A DNA stretch of 64,000 nucleotides from Terriglobales bacterium (GTDB taxonomy: Bacteria; Acidobacteriota; Terriglobia; Terriglobales; Acidobacteriaceae). Below, in pieces: positions 5,168 to 15,446 of the stretch. Every line of letters begins with the position of its first letter. Position 1 is the first letter of the stretch. The stretch is taken from NCBI GenBank assembly GCA_030038475.1, contig JASHOU010000062.1, positions 1-64,000 on the forward strand. Direction: 5' to 3'. The notes under the pieces were generated by a model that was given only the letters and a program-made list of their open reading frames with translations, did no database searches and was not told the origin of the DNA. The position numbers were made by a program, and so were the translations under genes.

Positions 5168-6571
5168 ATGCGATTCGAACTTTTCATCGCAAGCCGCTAT
5201 CTGCGCGCCAAACGGCGGCAGGCGTTTATTGGCGTCATCACGGGGATTTCTATTCTTGGCGTGGCGGCGGGAGTGGCTTCGCTGATCGTTGCACTGGCGA
5301 TCAATAACGGATTCAGGCAGGATTTGCAGGTTCGGCTTTTGGGATCGACGTCGCATATCAGTCTGTTGCGGGTGGAGAGCGACGGGATTCGCGATTGGCG
5401 TCCGCTGCTGGAGAAGTTGTCGAAGGAGCCGCATGTGGTGGCGGCGGCTCCCGCGATTTATGAGCAGGTGCTGATTTCACGCGGGCCGCGGGCGCAGGGC
5501 GCGGTGCTGAAGGGGATGCTGCCGCGATATGAACGGAAGGTCAGCGATTTGCTGAACTCGGTCACGATGGGATCGGCAGCGGAGCTGGCAGAAGAATCGG
5601 TGAGCGCGGCAGGTTCGACTGAAGAGCCGAGTTCAGAAGCAAGTGCAACACCAAAAGCAAATGCAAAAACAACATCAACGGCGGCGGGCGAGGGCGCCGG
5701 CTCCACACAAACACAAAACGAATCGCCAGACGATTTGGTTGGCGTGCAGCAGCGCGTCGCCGCGATGCCTCCGATTATTCTGGGCGAGGATTTGGCCGAC
5801 CAGATCGGCGCGACGGTGAGATCGGTGGTGTTAGTGACTTCTCCGCAGGGAGAGCTGACACCGTTTGGCATGGTGCCGAAATACATTCGCTTTCGCGTGG
5901 TGGGAATTTTTAACTCCGGCTTCTACGATTATGACTCGTCGTGGGCGTTTATTCGTCTGGCAGACGCGCAAAGTTTGTTTGGGTTGGGCGACGTGGTCTC
6001 GGTCATTCAATTCAAAATCGACGACATTTATCTGGCGGGCGAGGTAGCGAAGCAAATCGAAAACGCCGCCGATCAGATTTCAGGAAGCCACGGCTTCATG
6101 ACGACAAATTGGATGGAGCAGAACAAGCCTCTGTTTCGCGCGCTGCGGCTGGAGCGTGTGGTGACGTTCATCACGATCGGGCTGATCGTGTTCGTGGCGG
6201 CGCTGAATATTCTGATCTCGCTGATCATGATGGTGATGGAAAAGACGAAGGACATTGCCGTTCTGATGTCGATGGGAACGAAGAAGGCGCAGATCCGGCG
6301 CGTGTTTATTGCGCAAGGCGTGCTGATTGGAGTGATTGGGACGGCGATCGGGCTGGTGCTTGGCTACGCGATCTCTTGGGCGGGCGGACATTATCATTTT
6401 ATTTCGCTCTCGCCCGAAGTTTATTCGATCGACTATGTTCCGTTTGCAGCGCGAGCAACCGATGGGGTTATCGTCGCGCTGGTTTCGATCGGGATTTCGT
6501 TTGTGGCGACGATTTATCCGTCGTGGTCGGCAGCCCGGATTCTGCCGGCGGAGGCGCTGCGATATGAATAA
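5168..6571 (+). CDS. LolC/LolE-type lipoprotein-releasing ABC permease
   Basis: 467 aa. It has the FtsX/LolC layout: one TM near the N-terminus (about 20-45, after the family start FIASRYLRAKRRQ), a large periplasmic domain, and three C-terminal TMs (about 330-460) with MSMGTKKAQIRRVF between them and the PSWSAARILPAEALRYE ending. The family moves lipoproteins out of the inner membrane or works in other envelope ABC systems. An unusual Ser/Thr/Ala-rich stretch of about 50 residues (about 140-190) interrupts the periplasmic domain. The matching LolD-type ATPase is 2.1 kb downstream, separated by a radical SAM gene. No second LolE-type permease gene is seen, so a homodimer is plausible. Confidence 0.85.
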   Translation: MRFELFIASRYLRAKRRQAFIGVITGISILGVAAGVASLIVALAINNGFRQDLQVRLLGSTSHISLLRVESDGIRDWRPLLEKLSKEPHVVAAAPAIYEQVLISRGPRAQGAVLKGMLPRYERKVSDLLNSVTMGSAAELAEESVSAAGSTEEPSSEASATPKANAKTTSTAAGEGAGSTQTQNESPDDLVGVQQRVAAMPPIILGEDLADQIGATVRSVVLVTSPQGELTPFGMVPKYIRFRVVGIFNSGFYDYDSSWAFIRLADAQSLFGLGDVVSVIQFKIDDIYLAGEVAKQIENAADQISGSHGFMTTNWMEQNKPLFRALRLERVVTFITIGLIVFVAALNILISLIMMVMEKTKDIAVLMSMGTKKAQIRRVFIAQGVLIGVIGTAIGLVLGYAISWAGGHYHFISLSPEVYSIDYVPFAARATDGVIVALVSIGISFVATIYPSWSAARILPAEALRYE

Positions 6572-6853
6572 GCAGGACTTCACCTGCCAGTTCCGCTCGG
6601 GAATGTTGAGGTTCTCGTGCGCGCGCTCGGCGGCTGGAAACAGGCCGGTTATGGCAGCTGTGAACCGCTGCGCCACCCAAAATCGATTTTTTTCGCAACC
6701 CATGAAGTCGTGGCCTACCCGTTCCGAGAACCGCTGAGTCCCGCGTGAGTGTTACTTCCCCTGTAATAGTTTTGTACTGTGTCCCTCCTCACTGAAGCTG
6801 GCGGCTAAGGGCTGCTAGGTTCGAATCATCGCAATCATTTAGGAAAATCTGAA

Positions 6854-8512
6854 ATGAAAGTCCATCCCAAAGGCACTCGTGCGCGCGTGCTGCTCAGTTC
6901 GGTTTTCGGTCCATACGCGCAGGACGATGAATTCGGATCGCGCGTCATCAATCCTATGGAGCTCTATCACAATCAGGTGACGCGGGCGCAGGGTGGATTT
7001 TCGCTGCGCATGTTTCACCGGTCGTGGGGGATCATGATGATCCAGCAAAATATTTCGGCACCGTGCACGGTACTGGATTTTCCGGCACGCGAAGACTTCG
7101 CTCGCGAGCTGACGGCGAACGACTATGACATTGTCGGGATTTCTTCGATCATTGTTAATCTCGGGAAGGTACGGGAGATGTGCCGAATGGTGCGGGAGCT
7201 TTCGCCGCAATCGGTGATTGTGATCGGTGGGCACGTCGCGGCCGTCCCTGGGCTTGAAAGCACGATCGATGCCGACCATATCGTGCGCGGTGAGGGGATT
7301 TCGTGGATGCGACGGTATCTGGGCGAAGATCCGGAGGCGGCAATTCGGCATCCGGATATTGTTTCGGGGCTGAAGACGCGCGTCATGGGCATTCCCCTGG
7401 TTGAGCGCAAGGGCGACACGGCGGCGACCATCATTCCTTCGGTGGGCTGTCCGATGGGCTGCAACTTCTGTACGACCTCGGCGTTTTTCGGAGGCAAAGG
7501 CAAGTTTGTGAATTTTTATGAGACGGGCGATGAACTCTATGAGGTGATGTGCCAGGCGGAAGCGTCGCTCGGAGTACAGACGTTTTTTGTGATGGACGAA
7601 AATTTTCTGCTGCATCGCAAGCGCGCCATGCGTTTGCTAGATCGCATGAAAGAAGCGGGCAAGGCATGGGGTATGGCGGTGTTCGCCTCGGCAAATGCAA
7701 TCCGGCAATACACGATGGAACAGTTGGTTGAGCTCGGTGTGTCGTGGATCTGGATGGGACTGGAGTCGCCGCGATCGAGCTACGGGAAGCTGAAGGGAAC
7801 GGACTCACAGCAGTTGACGCGGGAGTTGCGCGAGCACGGCATTCGGGTGCAGGGCTCGACGATTATCGGGCTCGAGCACCACACCTCCGACAACATCGTC
7901 GAAGAGATCGAGTACGCGGTTGACCACAACACCGATTTTCACCAGTTCATGCTCTACACGCCGGTGCCGGGCACACCGTTATATAAGGAGATGGCGGAGC
8001 AGGGCCGGATGCTGGAAGGGATCGACGTAGCTGATATTCATGGTCAGGACAAGTTCAACTTCCGGCACGCGGCAATCTCGCGCGACGACTCGAAGCGCTT
8101 TCTCGACTGGGCGTTCTGGCGCGATTTCGAGCGCAACGGCCCGAGCGTGTATCGCATGTGCCGGACGATGCTGCAGGGGTGGCGGCGATATAAGGACTAT
8201 CCGGAGCTGCGTGTACGGGAGCGTTTTTCGCGCGAAAGCGCCAATCTGCGCACGGCCTACAGCGCGGCACTATGGGCAGCAGAGCGCTATTTTCGCAAAG
8301 TGAACGAGGATGTAAGCCGGCAGATTCGCGAACTGCGGCGCGAAATCGAGAAAGAATTTGGCGCGATCTCGCGACTGGCAGCCGACCTGGCAGGACCGGT
8401 GCTATTGTGGACGACGCGGCGCGAAGACCAGCGGCTGGCGGCGGGCGTAACCTATGAACCCCCGACAATTCTGGAGCGGCGCAACTGGACGAATGGGGTT
8501 GAACAAGCTTGA
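6854..8512 (+). CDS. B12-binding-domain radical SAM enzyme
   Basis: 552 aa, cytoplasmic. The N-terminal part (about 30-170) looks like a cobalamin-binding Rossmann domain (DIVGISSIIVNLGKV, VIVIGGHVAAVPG, HIVRGEG). It lacks the DxHxxG histidine loop, as many class B enzymes do. The radical SAM motif is CPMGCNFC (CxxxCxxC) at about 199-206, and the TIM-barrel part contains WIWMGLES and TPVPGTPLYKE. The last 130 residues are helical and basic/acidic. This architecture covers methyltransferases and lipid- or cofactor-modifying enzymes, including hopanoid methylases; the substrate cannot be assigned. The start has TTAGGA upstream. The gene sits between lolC and lolD in the same direction, with gaps of 282 and 210 bp. 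Confidence 0.85.
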   Translation: MKVHPKGTRARVLLSSVFGPYAQDDEFGSRVINPMELYHNQVTRAQGGFSLRMFHRSWGIMMIQQNISAPCTVLDFPAREDFARELTANDYDIVGISSIIVNLGKVREMCRMVRELSPQSVIVIGGHVAAVPGLESTIDADHIVRGEGISWMRRYLGEDPEAAIRHPDIVSGLKTRVMGIPLVERKGDTAATIIPSVGCPMGCNFCTTSAFFGGKGKFVNFYETGDELYEVMCQAEASLGVQTFFVMDENFLLHRKRAMRLLDRMKEAGKAWGMAVFASANAIRQYTMEQLVELGVSWIWMGLESPRSSYGKLKGTDSQQLTRELREHGIRVQGSTIIGLEHHTSDNIVEEIEYAVDHNTDFHQFMLYTPVPGTPLYKEMAEQGRMLEGIDVADIHGQDKFNFRHAAISRDDSKRFLDWAFWRDFERNGPSVYRMCRTMLQGWRRYKDYPELRVRERFSRESANLRTAYSAALWAAERYFRKVNEDVSRQIRELRREIEKEFGAISRLAADLAGPVLLWTTRREDQRLAAGVTYEPPTILERRNWTNGVEQA

Positions 8513-8548
8513 GTGAAGGGTGGTGTGGAAAGCGCCTTCATTATTCCC

Positions 8549-8564
8549 TGTGACTACGGTCACA
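8549..8564. promoter_or_regulatory. Perfect CRP/FNR-type palindrome
   Basis: TGTGA-CTACGG-TCACA matches the E. coli CRP core TGTGA-N6-TCACA exactly, and the palindrome extends to TGTGAC/GTCACA. It lies between the radical SAM gene and lolD, followed by TTGCAA and TATACA (only 14 nt apart). A hairpin with arms CCCACTTCC and GGAAGGGTGGG follows at 8604-8629. It is a likely binding site for a CRP/FNR-family regulator. Confidence 0.55.
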
Positions 8565-8640
8565 TTGCAAATGTTTTCCCGAGGTATACAGTTTTTCGCA
8601 TAGCCCACTTCCGAAATTGGAAGGGTGGGATCGGGTTATT

Positions 8641-8690
8641 GCGCCTCGTGGTCTAATGGATCAGGCCTGTGCCTTCTCCGCATTTCAGAG
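8641..8690 (+). pseudogene. tRNA-Arg-like 5' remnant (D-arm and anticodon arm)
   Basis: The D-arm GTCT-AATGGATC-AGGC pairs fully (one G-U). The next hairpin is at exactly the right spacing: TGTGC-CTTCTCC-GCATT, with an anticodon TCT in the expected place, although its outer pair is T-T. The string GTGGTCTAATGGATCAGGC resembles bacterial tRNA-Arg. No T-arm or matching 3' acceptor follows, so it cannot be a working tRNA. It is probably a decayed copy or the trace of a past recombination event. Confidence 0.4.
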
Positions 8691-8722
8691 GAGTGACCGG
8701 GCCGGTACTTAGGAGGGCAAGT

Positions 8723-9436
8723 TTGCATCCAATGACTCAAGATCCTCTTTTGAGGGTCGAAGGGTTAAGCAAGGTGTTTCGCTCAGGCGAAGCAGAGCTG
8801 GTGCTCTTTGAGAATCTGTCGTTCGAGGTCGCAAGGGGAACGATGCTGGCGATCGTCGGGCAGTCGGGCGCGGGCAAGAGTACCTTATTGCATATCCTCG
8901 GCGCGCTAGATCGTCCTTCGGCGGGTGCGGTATACTGCGCTCACTCGAAGGTGAATGCGCTCTCAGACGATGAAGCCGCCGAGTTTCGTAACCGCGAAAT
9001 CGGCTATGTCTGGCAGTTCCACTACCTGCTACCAGAATTCACCGCCCTCGAAAATGTGGCCATGCCGCTTCTGACGCGCGGGCAGGCCTTATCTTCAGCG
9101 GAACAGGAAGCTGCGCGATGGCTCGGCGAAGTGGGACTGGAGGCGCGCGGGCATCATCGTTCGGGAGAGCTTTCCGGAGGTGAACAGCAAAGATTGGCTC
9201 TGGCGCGGGCGCTGATCACACAGCCGCAAATCTTGCTGGCTGATGAGCCTACAGGCGACCTAGACGGGCGCACGGGAGAGATCGTATTTGAATTGATTGC
9301 GCGGTTGCACCGCGAGCACCAGTTGACGTCGTTGATCGCTACGCACAATCTGACGTTTGCACGACGGTGCCATCGCGTATTACGGTTGGATCAGGGCAAA
9401 ATGGAAGAAGTGGCCCCGGAGTCGCTGCCAGCGTAG
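8723..9436 (+). CDS. LolD-type ABC transporter ATPase
   Basis: 237 aa from the TTG at 8723. I chose this start because AGGAGG (8711-8716) lies exactly 6 nt before it; the ATG at 8732 would be 15 nt away. The Walker A motif is GQSGAGKST, the signature is LSGGEQQRLALARAL, Walker B is ILLADEPTGDLD, and the H-loop is ATHN. The early WQFHYLLPEFTALENV segment is typical of the MacB/LolD subfamily, which powers FtsX-like permeases. The partner is the LolC-type permease upstream. A CRP-type site and a tRNA-like remnant in the 210-bp leader suggest separate control from the genes before it. Confidence 0.88.
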   Translation: MHPMTQDPLLRVEGLSKVFRSGEAELVLFENLSFEVARGTMLAIVGQSGAGKSTLLHILGALDRPSAGAVYCAHSKVNALSDDEAAEFRNREIGYVWQFHYLLPEFTALENVAMPLLTRGQALSSAEQEAARWLGEVGLEARGHHRSGELSGGEQQRLALARALITQPQILLADEPTGDLDGRTGEIVFELIARLHREHQLTSLIATHNLTFARRCHRVLRLDQGKMEEVAPESLPA

Positions 9437-9655: not shown

Positions 9656-12103
<2,448 letters not shown>

Positions 12104-12191: not shown

Positions 12192-15100
12192 ATGCGCCGC
12201 GTAACTCTATTTGCCTTCCTACTTACAGCTTTGTTTCTCCCGCTAGCGCAGGCGAATCGGCAACAATCCACATCTCCCGATACCAAACCGATTGAAGATA
12301 AGTCGCAAGCGGTCACCTCTTCCAAGCCGGATTATTCCAAGGAAGCTTCCGTCGTAGAGAAATACCAAGTCCGCTTACGCTTTGAGAATGACGGCACGGG
12401 CCGCCGTGAAGAGACTGCTCGCGTCCGCGTGCAAAGCGACGCGGGAGTACAGCGCTGGGGTCAATTGCGATTTGGCTACAACTACGCGAATGAAAGCATT
12501 GAAATTCCCTACGTACGAGTTCTCAAAGAAGATGGCTCCGTAGTTAAGGCAGGCGCCGACGCGGTTCAAGAGCTGAACGAGCCTATCCAGCGCATTGCAC
12601 CGGTTTACACCGATTTTCGCGAGAAGCATGTCACCGTGCCCGGTTTGCGGGCAGGAGATGTGCTCGAATGGCAGAGCGTAGTAGTAACTCACACTCCGCT
12701 CGCACAAGGGCAGTTTTGGACGCAGCGTAACTTCGACAAGGCACAAATCGTGCTCGACGAAGAACTGGAGATCGATGTGCCTGCGGCGCGCGCCGTAAAG
12801 TTGAAGACGAAAACCGGCTACGATGCGAAAATCACCGAGGAAAACGGTCGCCGCGTCTATCGCTGGTCCACGTCGAACCTGGAGACGGAAGCCGAAAAGA
12901 CCGCAAAAGATAAGGATAAGGAAGACAAGGAAAAATCCGCGAAGAAGAAGAAACATGCGGACGACACCGCCGACGTTCAGTTGACATCTTTCGCCAGCTG
13001 GGAGGAGGTTGGGCGCTGGTATGCAAGTCTGGAAAAAGACCGGCGCGCTCCCTCGCCGGCGGTGAGGGCCAAAGCCGAAGAGCTAACCAAAGGGCAAAAG
13101 TCTGACCTCGATAAGATCGAAGCGCTCTATGACTACACAGCCCTGAATTTCCGCTATGTGAGTCTGGCGCTCGGCCTCGGACGCTATCAGCCCCATGCCG
13201 CTGACGACGTGCTGCACAATCAATACGGCGACTGCAAAGACAAACACACGCTTCTGGCTGCGCTGTTAGAGGCCGAGGGCTTTCACGCGTCGACAGTGCT
13301 CATCGGTAGCGTGCATAAACTCGACCCAGAGATTCCTTCGCCCGCGCAATTCAACCACGTCATCACCATGGTGCCTCTCGGCAACGAGGAAGTCTGGGTG
13401 GACACGACGACCGAGGTGGCGCCGTTCCGGCTGCTCGTTTTTCAGCTTCGCAAGAAACAGGCGCTGGTAATTCCTCAGGATGGCGCACCGCATCTCGAAG
13501 AAACGCCGTCCGACACTCCTGTCCCAGATACTGAGTCCGTCGAAATCGACGGCAAGATCGACGATACCGGCAAGCTGGATGCCAAAATCAGGGTTGCGGC
13601 GCGAGGCGATTCTGAGGTGCTGGTTCGCTTCGGGATGCGCGCCGTGGCCAGCTCGCAGTGGACGAAGATCATGGAGGGTGTGAGCGCAAAAGAGGGGTGG
13701 GGCAGCGATGTCAGTGAAGTTAAAATCTCCGACCCTGCCGCGACACGCGAGCCGTTCACTTATTCTTACCGCGTTGCCAAGGCCAACTATCTCGATTTTT
13801 CCAAGAAAAAATCGGAGGTGAAGTTTCCCGCGTCCACTGTTGGTCTCGCGAACGCCATTTCCGAAGACGCAGACAGCCCCGATCCCATCAAACTCGGCGC
13901 TCCGAATACGCACGAATACAAAATCAGACTTGAGTTTCCCGTCAAATGCACCGTGCGCCCTCCGCTGCCTGTTTCTGTAAAGCGCGACTACGGCAGCTAC
14001 GAAGCAAGCTACAAACTGGAAGGAACCGTACTCACTGCCGATCGCAAACTTATAATCAGCGAGGCAGAATTGCCTTCATCGAGAGTGCAGGATTATCTGG
14101 CTTTCCGCCGCTCCGTGACCGAGGACCTGGCGCAGAGAATTGCGTTTGAGCCTGACATCGTCTCGATCCCGGCTCTAACCGCGGATTTGAAACCGGCCGA
14201 TCTGTTCAGACGCGGCAACGACGCTCGAAAAGACGGCAACTACGCGGTGGCCATCGATTTTCTCAAGCGCGGAGTCGAAGCCGACCCAAAAACCAACGAT
14301 GGATGGAATGAACTCGGCATCGCCTACCTCGATTCCAACCAGGACGAACAGGCGATCGCGGCGTTTCAAAAGCAGATCGATGTGAATCCTTACCATCAGT
14401 ATGCCTTCGAAAACCTAGGTCGCATCTATCTGCGCCAGCGGAAGTATGACGAGGCCATAAAGTGGTTCAACAAGCAAATCGAGGTTGATCCGCTCAACAA
14501 GAATGCGCACAACAACCTGGCCATCGCTTATCTCGAGCAGCACAAGTATCAAGATGCATTGCCGGAGCTGGAAAAAGCGGCGTCCCTGGAACCGGATAAC
14601 GCGGAGGCGAAGGTCCGCCTTGGCGAAGCCTACTTAAATCTGGACGAGGATGACAAAGCCATGGCGGCATTCGATCAGGCTCTGAAGATTTCCGCCAGGC
14701 CGGCAGTATGGAACAACATTGCCTATCAGCTGGCGCTCAAGAAAACACACTTGGATCTGGCTCGCAGTTATGCCGAATCGGCTGTTTCTACAACCGCTGC
14801 CTCATTGCGCACTTTGTCGCTCGATCGACTCGAAACCCGCGACATTGGTCATACCGCGACGCTGGCGAACTGCTGGGACACGCTGGGTTGGGTCGCCTTT
14901 GTCGATGGCCAGTCAAGCCAGGCGGAAAAATACCTGACGGCGGCATGGCAACTCTCGCAAAACTCGGATAGTGCCGATCACTTGGCGCAGATCTTCGAGA
15001 AGCAGGGCGAGAAAGAGAAAGCAATCCGCTTCTATGCGCTGGCGATGAACGTGCGCCGTCCGGAAACGGAAACGCGTCAACGTCTGGTGGCGCTTGCAGG

Positions 15101-15446
15101 CGGCGATGACAATGCCGATGCGATGATTGCGAAAACACGGGAAGGTTTTGCTGCGCTGGGCGCGATGCACGTACCCAATCCCTCGAAACTGGAGGGTAAA
15201 GCCGATTTCTTCGTTCTGCTGAAGAGTGGCTCTGAGTCGTCAGTCACCGTCGACAACGTCAAGTTTGTGAGCGGAGAGGAAAAACTCAAGCCGTTTGGCG
15301 ACGCGCTCCGCAGCGCCCGTTACGATCAGTCTTTGCCTGACGGAACCCCGGTCAAACTGCTGCGCCGAGGAACGCTCTCCTGCGCTGCAGTCGCCGATTG
15401 CACCTTTCAGTTGACGCAGCCAAGTGAGGTTCACTCCGTGAACTGA
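12192..15446 (+). CDS. Exported DUF3857/transglutaminase-like TPR protein
   Basis: 1084 aa with a signal peptide (1-21). A DUF3857 beta domain (about 50-240) is followed by a Lys/Asp/Glu-rich linker (234-257), then a transglutaminase-like fold with an intact Cys-His-Asp triad: C348 in YGDCKDK, H389 in QFNHV and D404 in WVDTT. A DUF3858-like beta region comes next, then about five TPR units (about 680-860) and a C-terminal domain. Such proteins are common and large in Acidobacteriota and Bacteroidota and are secreted or periplasmic. The triad suggests a peptidase or cross-linking activity, but the substrate is unknown. It is a single gene between two strong terminators. The start follows a 7-bp palindrome with only a weak ribosome site. 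Confidence 0.82.
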   Translation: MRRVTLFAFLLTALFLPLAQANRQQSTSPDTKPIEDKSQAVTSSKPDYSKEASVVEKYQVRLRFENDGTGRREETARVRVQSDAGVQRWGQLRFGYNYANESIEIPYVRVLKEDGSVVKAGADAVQELNEPIQRIAPVYTDFREKHVTVPGLRAGDVLEWQSVVVTHTPLAQGQFWTQRNFDKAQIVLDEELEIDVPAARAVKLKTKTGYDAKITEENGRRVYRWSTSNLETEAEKTAKDKDKEDKEKSAKKKKHADDTADVQLTSFASWEEVGRWYASLEKDRRAPSPAVRAKAEELTKGQKSDLDKIEALYDYTALNFRYVSLALGLGRYQPHAADDVLHNQYGDCKDKHTLLAALLEAEGFHASTVLIGSVHKLDPEIPSPAQFNHVITMVPLGNEEVWVDTTTEVAPFRLLVFQLRKKQALVIPQDGAPHLEETPSDTPVPDTESVEIDGKIDDTGKLDAKIRVAARGDSEVLVRFGMRAVASSQWTKIMEGVSAKEGWGSDVSEVKISDPAATREPFTYSYRVAKANYLDFSKKKSEVKFPASTVGLANAISEDADSPDPIKLGAPNTHEYKIRLEFPVKCTVRPPLPVSVKRDYGSYEASYKLEGTVLTADRKLIISEAELPSSRVQDYLAFRRSVTEDLAQRIAFEPDIVSIPALTADLKPADLFRRGNDARKDGNYAVAIDFLKRGVEADPKTNDGWNELGIAYLDSNQDEQAIAAFQKQIDVNPYHQYAFENLGRIYLRQRKYDEAIKWFNKQIEVDPLNKNAHNNLAIAYLEQHKYQDALPELEKAASLEPDNAEAKVRLGEAYLNLDEDDKAMAAFDQALKISARPAVWNNIAYQLALKKTHLDLARSYAESAVSTTAASLRTLSLDRLETRDIGHTATLANCWDTLGWVAFVDGQSSQAEKYLTAAWQLSQNSDSADHLAQIFEKQGEKEKAIRFYALAMNVRRPETETRQRLVALAGGDDNADAMIAKTREGFAALGAMHVPNPSKLEGKADFFVLLKSGSESSVTVDNVKFVSGEEKLKPFGDALRSARYDQSLPDGTPVKLLRRGTLSCAAVADCTFQLTQPSEVHSVN

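Follow-up and report, generated by a model that had tools for sequence, protein, structure and literature searches.

A gene for a cobalamin-binding radical SAM enzyme that stands between two Lol-like transporter genes of a Terriglobales bacterium carries an operator of its own, and the same operator precedes a fatty-acid desaturase operon that also encodes a histidine kinase and a response regulator. Co-regulation of the enzyme and the desaturase is well supported by the comparison of upstream sequences, and we consider it rather probable that the enzyme is the second output of a DesK/DesR-like membrane switch and that its substrates are lipids, which it most likely alters by C-methylating their acyl chains. 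In the mechanism that we propose, a self-contained unit of operator, promoter, and one enzyme gene would have settled by chance between lolC and lolD and would answer to a membrane-sensing two-component system; of the two outputs of this system, the desaturase-kinase-regulator operon would be the first and the radical SAM enzyme the second. The kinase would sense the state of the membrane, the regulator would bind TGTAAT-N5-TGTAAT and activate both promoters, and the desaturase, judging from its family, would introduce double bonds into acyl chains. If the enzyme is switched with the desaturase, it most likely edits membrane lipids, and the second change that it would make to them is most likely methylation of an unactivated acyl or alkyl carbon by the cobalamin route. 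We infer both the binding of the regulator to the operators and the methylation chemistry of the enzyme. On this reading, an orphan enzyme family of many soil Acidobacteria would become a lipid-enzyme candidate with a proposed regulator, operator, and partner gene, and a desaturase switch in the style of DesK/DesR would work with an OmpR-family regulator and have a B12 radical SAM enzyme as its second output.

The window, that is, the whole 64,000-nucleotide stretch of DNA analyzed, contains at positions 6854 to 8512 (+ strand) an open reading frame of 552 amino acids encoding the cobalamin-binding radical SAM enzyme. Both Pfam domains expected from the preliminary description, which had called this a B12-type radical SAM gene, score above their cut-offs: a B12-binding domain at residues 71 to 148 (PF02310, 44.7 bits versus a cut-off of 32.1, E = 1.4e-11) lies N-terminal to a Radical_SAM domain at residues 193 to 354 (PF04055, 45.2 bits versus 29.5, E = 1.5e-11), which is the arrangement of the cobalamin-binding class. 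The CxxxCxxC motif, formed by C199, C203, and C206, is invariant in 27 of 27 aligned orthologues. In a family-model scan, the protein of the window reached none of the NCBIfam cut-offs, and the 27 orthologues scanned gave largely the same family matches.

We then compared the fold of an AlphaFold2 model (mean pLDDT, 79.6; pTM, 0.84) with solved structures. Cobalamin enzymes gave the matches AprD4 (Z, 15.2), OxsB (14.5), TsrM (13.7), and MgmA (12.7), and the methylthiotransferases of tRNA and ribosome were almost equal (RimO, 12.9; MtaB, 12.7; MiaB, 12.4), while Foldseek ranked TsrM first. Such matches of a predicted model would tell the kind of enzyme, not its substrate, and a lipid substrate was indicated by no family model and no solved structure in the profile scans. 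The enzyme shares with TsrM, OxsB, MgmA, CysS, TokK, and AprD4 the N-terminal B12-binding domain, the CxxxCxxC radical SAM core, and the overall fold, although identity to these structures is only about 13 to 18%. Unlike the TsrM/OxsB-type enzymes, it has a conserved N-terminal motif of its own, LLSSVFGPYAQDDEFGSR, and a C-terminal part that is helical and matches no Pfam family.

The enzyme belongs to a widespread but patchy orphan family of cobalamin-binding radical SAM proteins of Acidobacteriota, for which we found no assigned function. Holders make up 44 of 299 genomes of the class and 81 of 398 genomes of its own family, the window's genome being counted in both, as well as 98 of 237 genomes of family f6. 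One scan for viral copies returned none. Two full-length copies occur together in several genomes of family f6 (G091, G712, G722, G733, and G794), and such paired copies may serve two substrates or positions.

An operator shared with a desaturase operon

Upstream of the enzyme gene, the operator reads TGTAAT-N5-TGTACT (6762 to 6778, + strand), an 11-bp direct repeat and putative site of an OmpR-family regulator. A -10-like hexamer of the radical SAM promoter, TAGGTT (6816 to 6821, + strand), follows a TG as in an extended -10 and was assigned from the spacing of TAnnnT across loci. As TGTAAT-N5-TGTAAT, the 11-bp direct repeat is common to enzyme upstream regions from unrelated genomic places. 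We scored it over 12 fixed positions, in stretches of 260 bp for the enzyme and the controls and of 290 bp for the desaturase. It was present with at most two mismatches in 68 of 95 enzyme loci, which are related by descent and do not constitute 95 independent cases, and with at most one mismatch in 47. At the same two thresholds, 1900 local shuffles gave 25 and 2 sites, and the regions before 627 further genes located around the enzyme gave 2 and 0, after 38 stretches overlapping the enzyme's own upstream region had been dropped from this control. The 95 loci come from an initial 112, from which we removed 10 duplicates and set aside loci without a recognized enzyme gene, a start motif, or enough upstream sequence.

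At two mismatches, the operator was absent from 27 of the 95 loci, including all 9 that were read in family f2, 2 of which have it at three mismatches. Family f6 carries it in 12 of 29 readable enzyme loci, a set that overlaps the 95, and there it is reverse-oriented. The distance to the presumed -10 is narrow: of 57 forward-oriented enzyme sites, 41 have a TAnnnT hexamer 36 to 39 nt 3' of the operator, with 15 further occurrences at 48 to 49 nt, one helix turn on, and the reverse-oriented enzyme promoters (n = 11) have 7 occurrences at 21 to 22 nt. When a strict operator pattern was searched in four genomes, the window's included, the enzyme promoter was the sole match in each, and the reversed control gave one match. 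The promoter of the enzyme gene travels with the gene, and the leader that had been ascribed to the gene is present and conserved.

A loose operator pattern, searched in six genomes, returned 33 sites versus 9 for the reversed control. We compared 30 of these sites by blastn over 150 bp, by which diverged counterparts can be missed, and recovered the desaturase promoter in six of six genomes, the enzyme promoter at four loci, and 20 singletons. The gene found behind such a site in all six genomes encodes a fatty-acid desaturase (PF00487, 63 bits versus a cut-off of 29.7). Among 46 desaturase loci from 41 genomes, five of them second copies, the operator was found in 42 at two mismatches or fewer and in 39 at one or fewer, and its orientation was constant in all 42. 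The desaturase promoters have TAnnnT 21 to 22 nt 3' of the operator (31 occurrences in the 34 parsed of the 46). The operator precedes 25 of 26 desaturase loci in enzyme-holding genomes (G021 counted) and 17 of 20 in enzyme-free genomes; being as common without the enzyme as with it, the desaturase operator does not predict the enzyme, and its presence in genomes that lack the enzyme marks the desaturase as the older target. At E 1e-60, no desaturase was matched in eight of the 30 genomes with an orthologue (G020, G039, G041, G044, G045, G047, G048, and G052); G020 keeps the enzyme operator, and the other seven are also without it. Joint absence of desaturase and operator in these seven genomes would fit a loss of the switch.

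OmpR-family regulators commonly bind half-sites spaced 11 bp apart, and operators of the PhoP/PhoB/PmrA type have half-sites every 11 bp and a -10 without a clear -35. The promoters described here likewise have two half-sites at an 11-bp period and a -10 with no clear -35. Unlike in that type, the half-site is TGTAAT, and in the six genomes only the desaturase and the enzyme were found as conserved targets; a PhoB regulon was rejected as a candidate, as the loose pattern, compared by blastn over 150 bp, yielded no other conserved target there. The speculation of the preliminary description that the enzyme acts on lipids thus gains independent support from an operator common to the enzyme and the fatty-acid desaturase operon.

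Two further observations concern cytochrome c-like genes. A small gene of this kind is divergent from the desaturase and forms a cluster in 16 of 30 loci (e.g., L199, L186, L200, and L206), and the operator between the two genes might serve both. The second is a site in G015 (locus L187, position 1501) that fits the loose pattern perfectly and lies ahead of two genes, one for a probable exported protein and one cytochrome c-like; the sites from the other five genomes included no counterpart of it.

Chemistry and candidate substrates

The most common reaction in this enzyme class is methylation at an unactivated carbon. One alternative accepts the shared operator as real and lets the enzyme act on a non-acyl target that changes with the membrane, such as a hopanoid, a carotenoid, a quinone, or a small molecule. 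The nearest family models do include HpnJ and BchE, with low scores, and the genome has HpnH as well as a true HpnJ elsewhere (779 bits). Like the enzyme, HpnJ and HpnR are B12-type radical SAM proteins, they act on membrane lipids, and they are among its best distant family matches. However, the enzyme scores 34.8 bits against the HpnR model TIGR04367, with a cut-off of 650, and 72.8 bits against the HpnJ model TIGR03471, with a cut-off of 577.6, so that, in the comparison with hopanoid methylases that the preliminary description had proposed, kinship does not hold at the family level; HpnJ, moreover, is no methylase. Among the recurring neighbors listed, we recognized no hopanoid gene by eye. 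With both cut-offs missed widely and no such neighbor, we regard a non-acyl target as unlikely.

A second alternative, which we rate as rather unlikely, is that the enzyme cross-links or cyclizes lipid chains, in the manner of Tes, Mss, or Grs, and does not methylate. It draws on the nearest folds, since AprD4 and OxsB are cobalamin-type radical SAM enzymes that do not methylate. Against it, the profile search of solved structures listed no Tes-like match at E <= 0.01 (the fold list also lacks Tes, which by itself proves nothing), and, to our knowledge, Tes does not carry a B12 domain. Of the 21 radical SAM genes of the genome, none of the 20 besides the window's own was named Tes or Mss, and for one unassigned gene among them no relative of solved structure turned up at E 1e-5. 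Precedents for radical SAM enzymes that cross-link or cyclize lipid chains are described, in archaea and bacteria, in passages of two papers (PMC8941075 and PMC11868695).

One specific form of acyl-chain methylation would be of wider consequence. Passages of two further papers (PMC10087280 and PMC13274423) describe radical SAM lipid chemistry in Acidobacteria and a methylation that rises in the cold. On both points the enzyme, as we read it, would resemble Tes, Mss, and the presumed C5/C6 methylase of branched glycerol lipids (brGDGT). The enzyme could then be a cold-controlled C-methyltransferase that places mid-chain methyls on the iso-diabolic acid- and brGDGT-type lipids of Acidobacteria, under a switch common to it and the desaturase. 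We see this as a long shot. If true, the enzyme would be the one behind the brGDGT methylation palaeothermometer, whose temperature response would come from a membrane-sensing desaturase switch. Neither "Candidatus Koribacter versatilis" nor "Candidatus Solibacter usitatus," two known methylated producers, appeared among the best 80 named enzyme loci, which leans against a close orthologue in either. In the titles, abstract openings, and passages retrieved, we found no paper naming the brGDGT C5/C6 methylase and none linking the enzyme family to the desaturase switch. Soil Acidobacteria are described in the passages available to us as shifting lipid methylation with temperature, and the enzyme offers a testable candidate for this shift.

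The kinase and the regulator

A histidine kinase gene lies 3' of the desaturase gene, on the same strand, in 22 of 30 loci with a 1.5-kb flank, and the order desaturase-kinase-regulator was found in 10 of 10 genomes chosen for the check, five of them without the enzyme. In the genome of the window, the domains are HisKA and HATPase_c in the kinase and Response_reg and Trans_reg_C in the regulator, placing the latter in the OmpR/PhoB family. Two stretches of the kinase (about residues 7 to 36 and 38 to 67) are hydrophobic, with a short loop between them, and the protein has no outside domain, as expected for a sensor of the membrane itself. In this genome, a 519-amino-acid open reading frame on the opposite strand, rich in VNGDG-type repeats, stands between desaturase and kinase (locus L292, 2514 to 4073); the distance between the two genes is within about 450 bp in nine other genomes fetched.

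DesR of Bacillus subtilis is of the NarL/LuxR type. In the DesK/DesR system of that organism, membrane helices are likewise the sole sensor part of the kinase, and its gene likewise stands beside the desaturase gene with the regulator behind. The regulator described here belongs to the OmpR/PhoB family, as shown by Trans_reg_C, and not to the DesR type, and, unlike in DesK/DesR, a B12 radical SAM enzyme would be the second target.

The repeat could instead be bound by a regulator other than the OmpR-family neighbor, or could be shared by convergence without physiological co-regulation. A period of 11 bp would suit direct repeats of CarH-type regulators as well, and we tried the CarH-type operator as a candidate, but, when read against the motif nnnnTnnACAn given in a passage of PMC9304148, the repeat fits in period and does not contain TnnACA. 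The regulator gene 3' of the desaturase in all 10 genomes and the narrow spacing from operator to -10 argue for the neighbor, and we hold another regulator, or convergence, to be rather improbable.

The place between lolC and lolD

The upstream neighbor, which ends 282 bp before the enzyme's open reading frame, encodes a LolC/E-type lipoprotein-releasing permease of 467 amino acids (5168 to 6571, + strand; FtsX and MacB_PCD domains), and the downstream neighbor encodes a LolD-type ABC ATPase (8723 to 9436, + strand; ABC_tran; longest open reading frame, 8669 to 9436). Both fall below their NCBIfam equivalog cut-offs (permease, TIGR02212, 328.8 versus 362.45 bits; ATPase, TIGR02211, 265.4 versus 307.75 bits), so that "Lol-like" is the safe name. 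The position given earlier for the enzyme, between these two genes, was accurate; we keep the names lolC and lolD for brevity. The start of lolD is likely TTG at 8723 and not GTG at 8669, judging from the AGGAGGG ahead of it (8711 to 8717); in the alignment of lolD upstream regions, this ribosome-binding site and TTGCATC are largely conserved.

The lolD promoter is intact and separate from the enzyme gene. Its CRP-type palindrome, TGTGACTACGGTCACA, which the preliminary description had placed before lolD, lies at 8549 to 8564 (+ strand), and an exact TGTGAN6TCACA occurs in 16 of 24 lolD upstream regions. A -10-like element, TATACAGT (8585 to 8592, + strand), follows 20 nt 3' of this site within a conserved alignment block. 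Further on, CCTCGTGGTCTAATGGATCA (8644 to 8663, + strand) belongs to a lolD leader that is conserved in the genus whether the enzyme gene is present or not. This stretch had been taken for a tRNA-like remnant, an assignment that we withdraw: ARAGORN found tRNA-Glu at 156 to 230 alone, and Rfam gave no match up to E 1 at 8500 to 8800. In some relatives, e.g., G016, G017, and G020, the lolD leader CCTCRTGGTCTAATGGATCA occurs in tandem copies.

We searched for orthologues in 61 genomes, the window's own and 60 relatives, and judged 30 to be holders from the scores, leaving out G021 (a 54-residue piece at a contig end) and G056 (a 34% relative). The enzyme adjoins lolD and clpC in six genomes, the window's own, G001, G002, G015, G010, and G023. 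On its other side, lolC is found only in the window's own, G001, and G015; the contigs of G010 and G023 stop inside the gene, and lolC of G002 is on another contig. Both lol genes were readable in 20 loci, 14 with the genes 206 to 383 bp apart, three with about 1.6 kb between them and no enzyme, and three with the enzyme. The 14 genomes with close lolC and lolD comprise 8 with an enzyme orthologue elsewhere and 6 in which none was found. Adjacency of lolC and lolD is not universal, since they are about 18 kb apart in G029 and on opposite strands in G024.

Other genes are also found in this gap, each beside the enzyme: a DUF4062/HEAT gene in G001 and a subtilase gene in G015. Insertions in the gap were located at L033 (5716 to 8142) and L034 (10671 to 12281), and stretches of about 1.6 kb at L142, L144, and L151. 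The presence of unrelated genes in G001 and G015 indicates that the gap takes insertions. Around 99 enzyme loci, whose flanks are unequal and reach up to about 10 kb, no other gene cluster recurred in more than 10, and no recurring lipid gene was found beside the enzyme. FabI, IlvE, and a branched-chain dehydrogenase were rejected as partners: of the 99 loci, 4 have FabI-like and 3 have IlvE-like genes, and the recurring clusters listed do not include the dehydrogenase, with names read from the sequences.

The enzyme's place between lolC and lolD is incidental. The preliminary description had offered a functional tie to the exporter or an insertion, and gene order supports the insertion and contradicts the tie, as in many relatives lolC and lolD are neighbors and the enzyme lies elsewhere among unrelated partners. 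A role for the enzyme in the Lol-like exporter, with a lipoprotein or lipopeptide handled by LolCD as its substrate and a functional gene order, would agree with its location between the lol genes in three genomes (the window's own, G001, and G015) and next to lolD in three others (G002, G010, and G023), but is hardly credible and largely refuted by the 14 genomes with close lol genes and no enzyme between them, 8 of which have the orthologue elsewhere, by the DUF4062/HEAT and subtilase genes sharing the gap, and by a lolD promoter that is whole and distinct.

We compared the trees of the enzyme and its neighbors. In the enzyme tree, the copy of the window and the five others that lie beside lolD form one group (100/99), and forcing the window's copy together with 13 other copies of the genus was rejected (p-AU, 0.00025), with the reservation that these 13 were chosen after the lolD tree was seen and that the lolD tree does not hold all of them. 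In the lolD tree, the genome of the window falls into a group (96/89) with 11 genomes in which the enzyme is not kept at lolD. The two trees thus conflict in where they place this genome, and the lolC tree, which has no starred branch and a p-AU of 0.1, leaves its placement unsettled. Transfer between species into the same lolC-lolD gap would be a fair reading of these trees. Downstream of lolD lies the clpC-like gene (9656 to 12103), which is followed at 12192 to 15446 by a gene for a 1084-amino-acid protein with a DUF3857 domain, a transglutaminase-like domain, and many TPR repeats.
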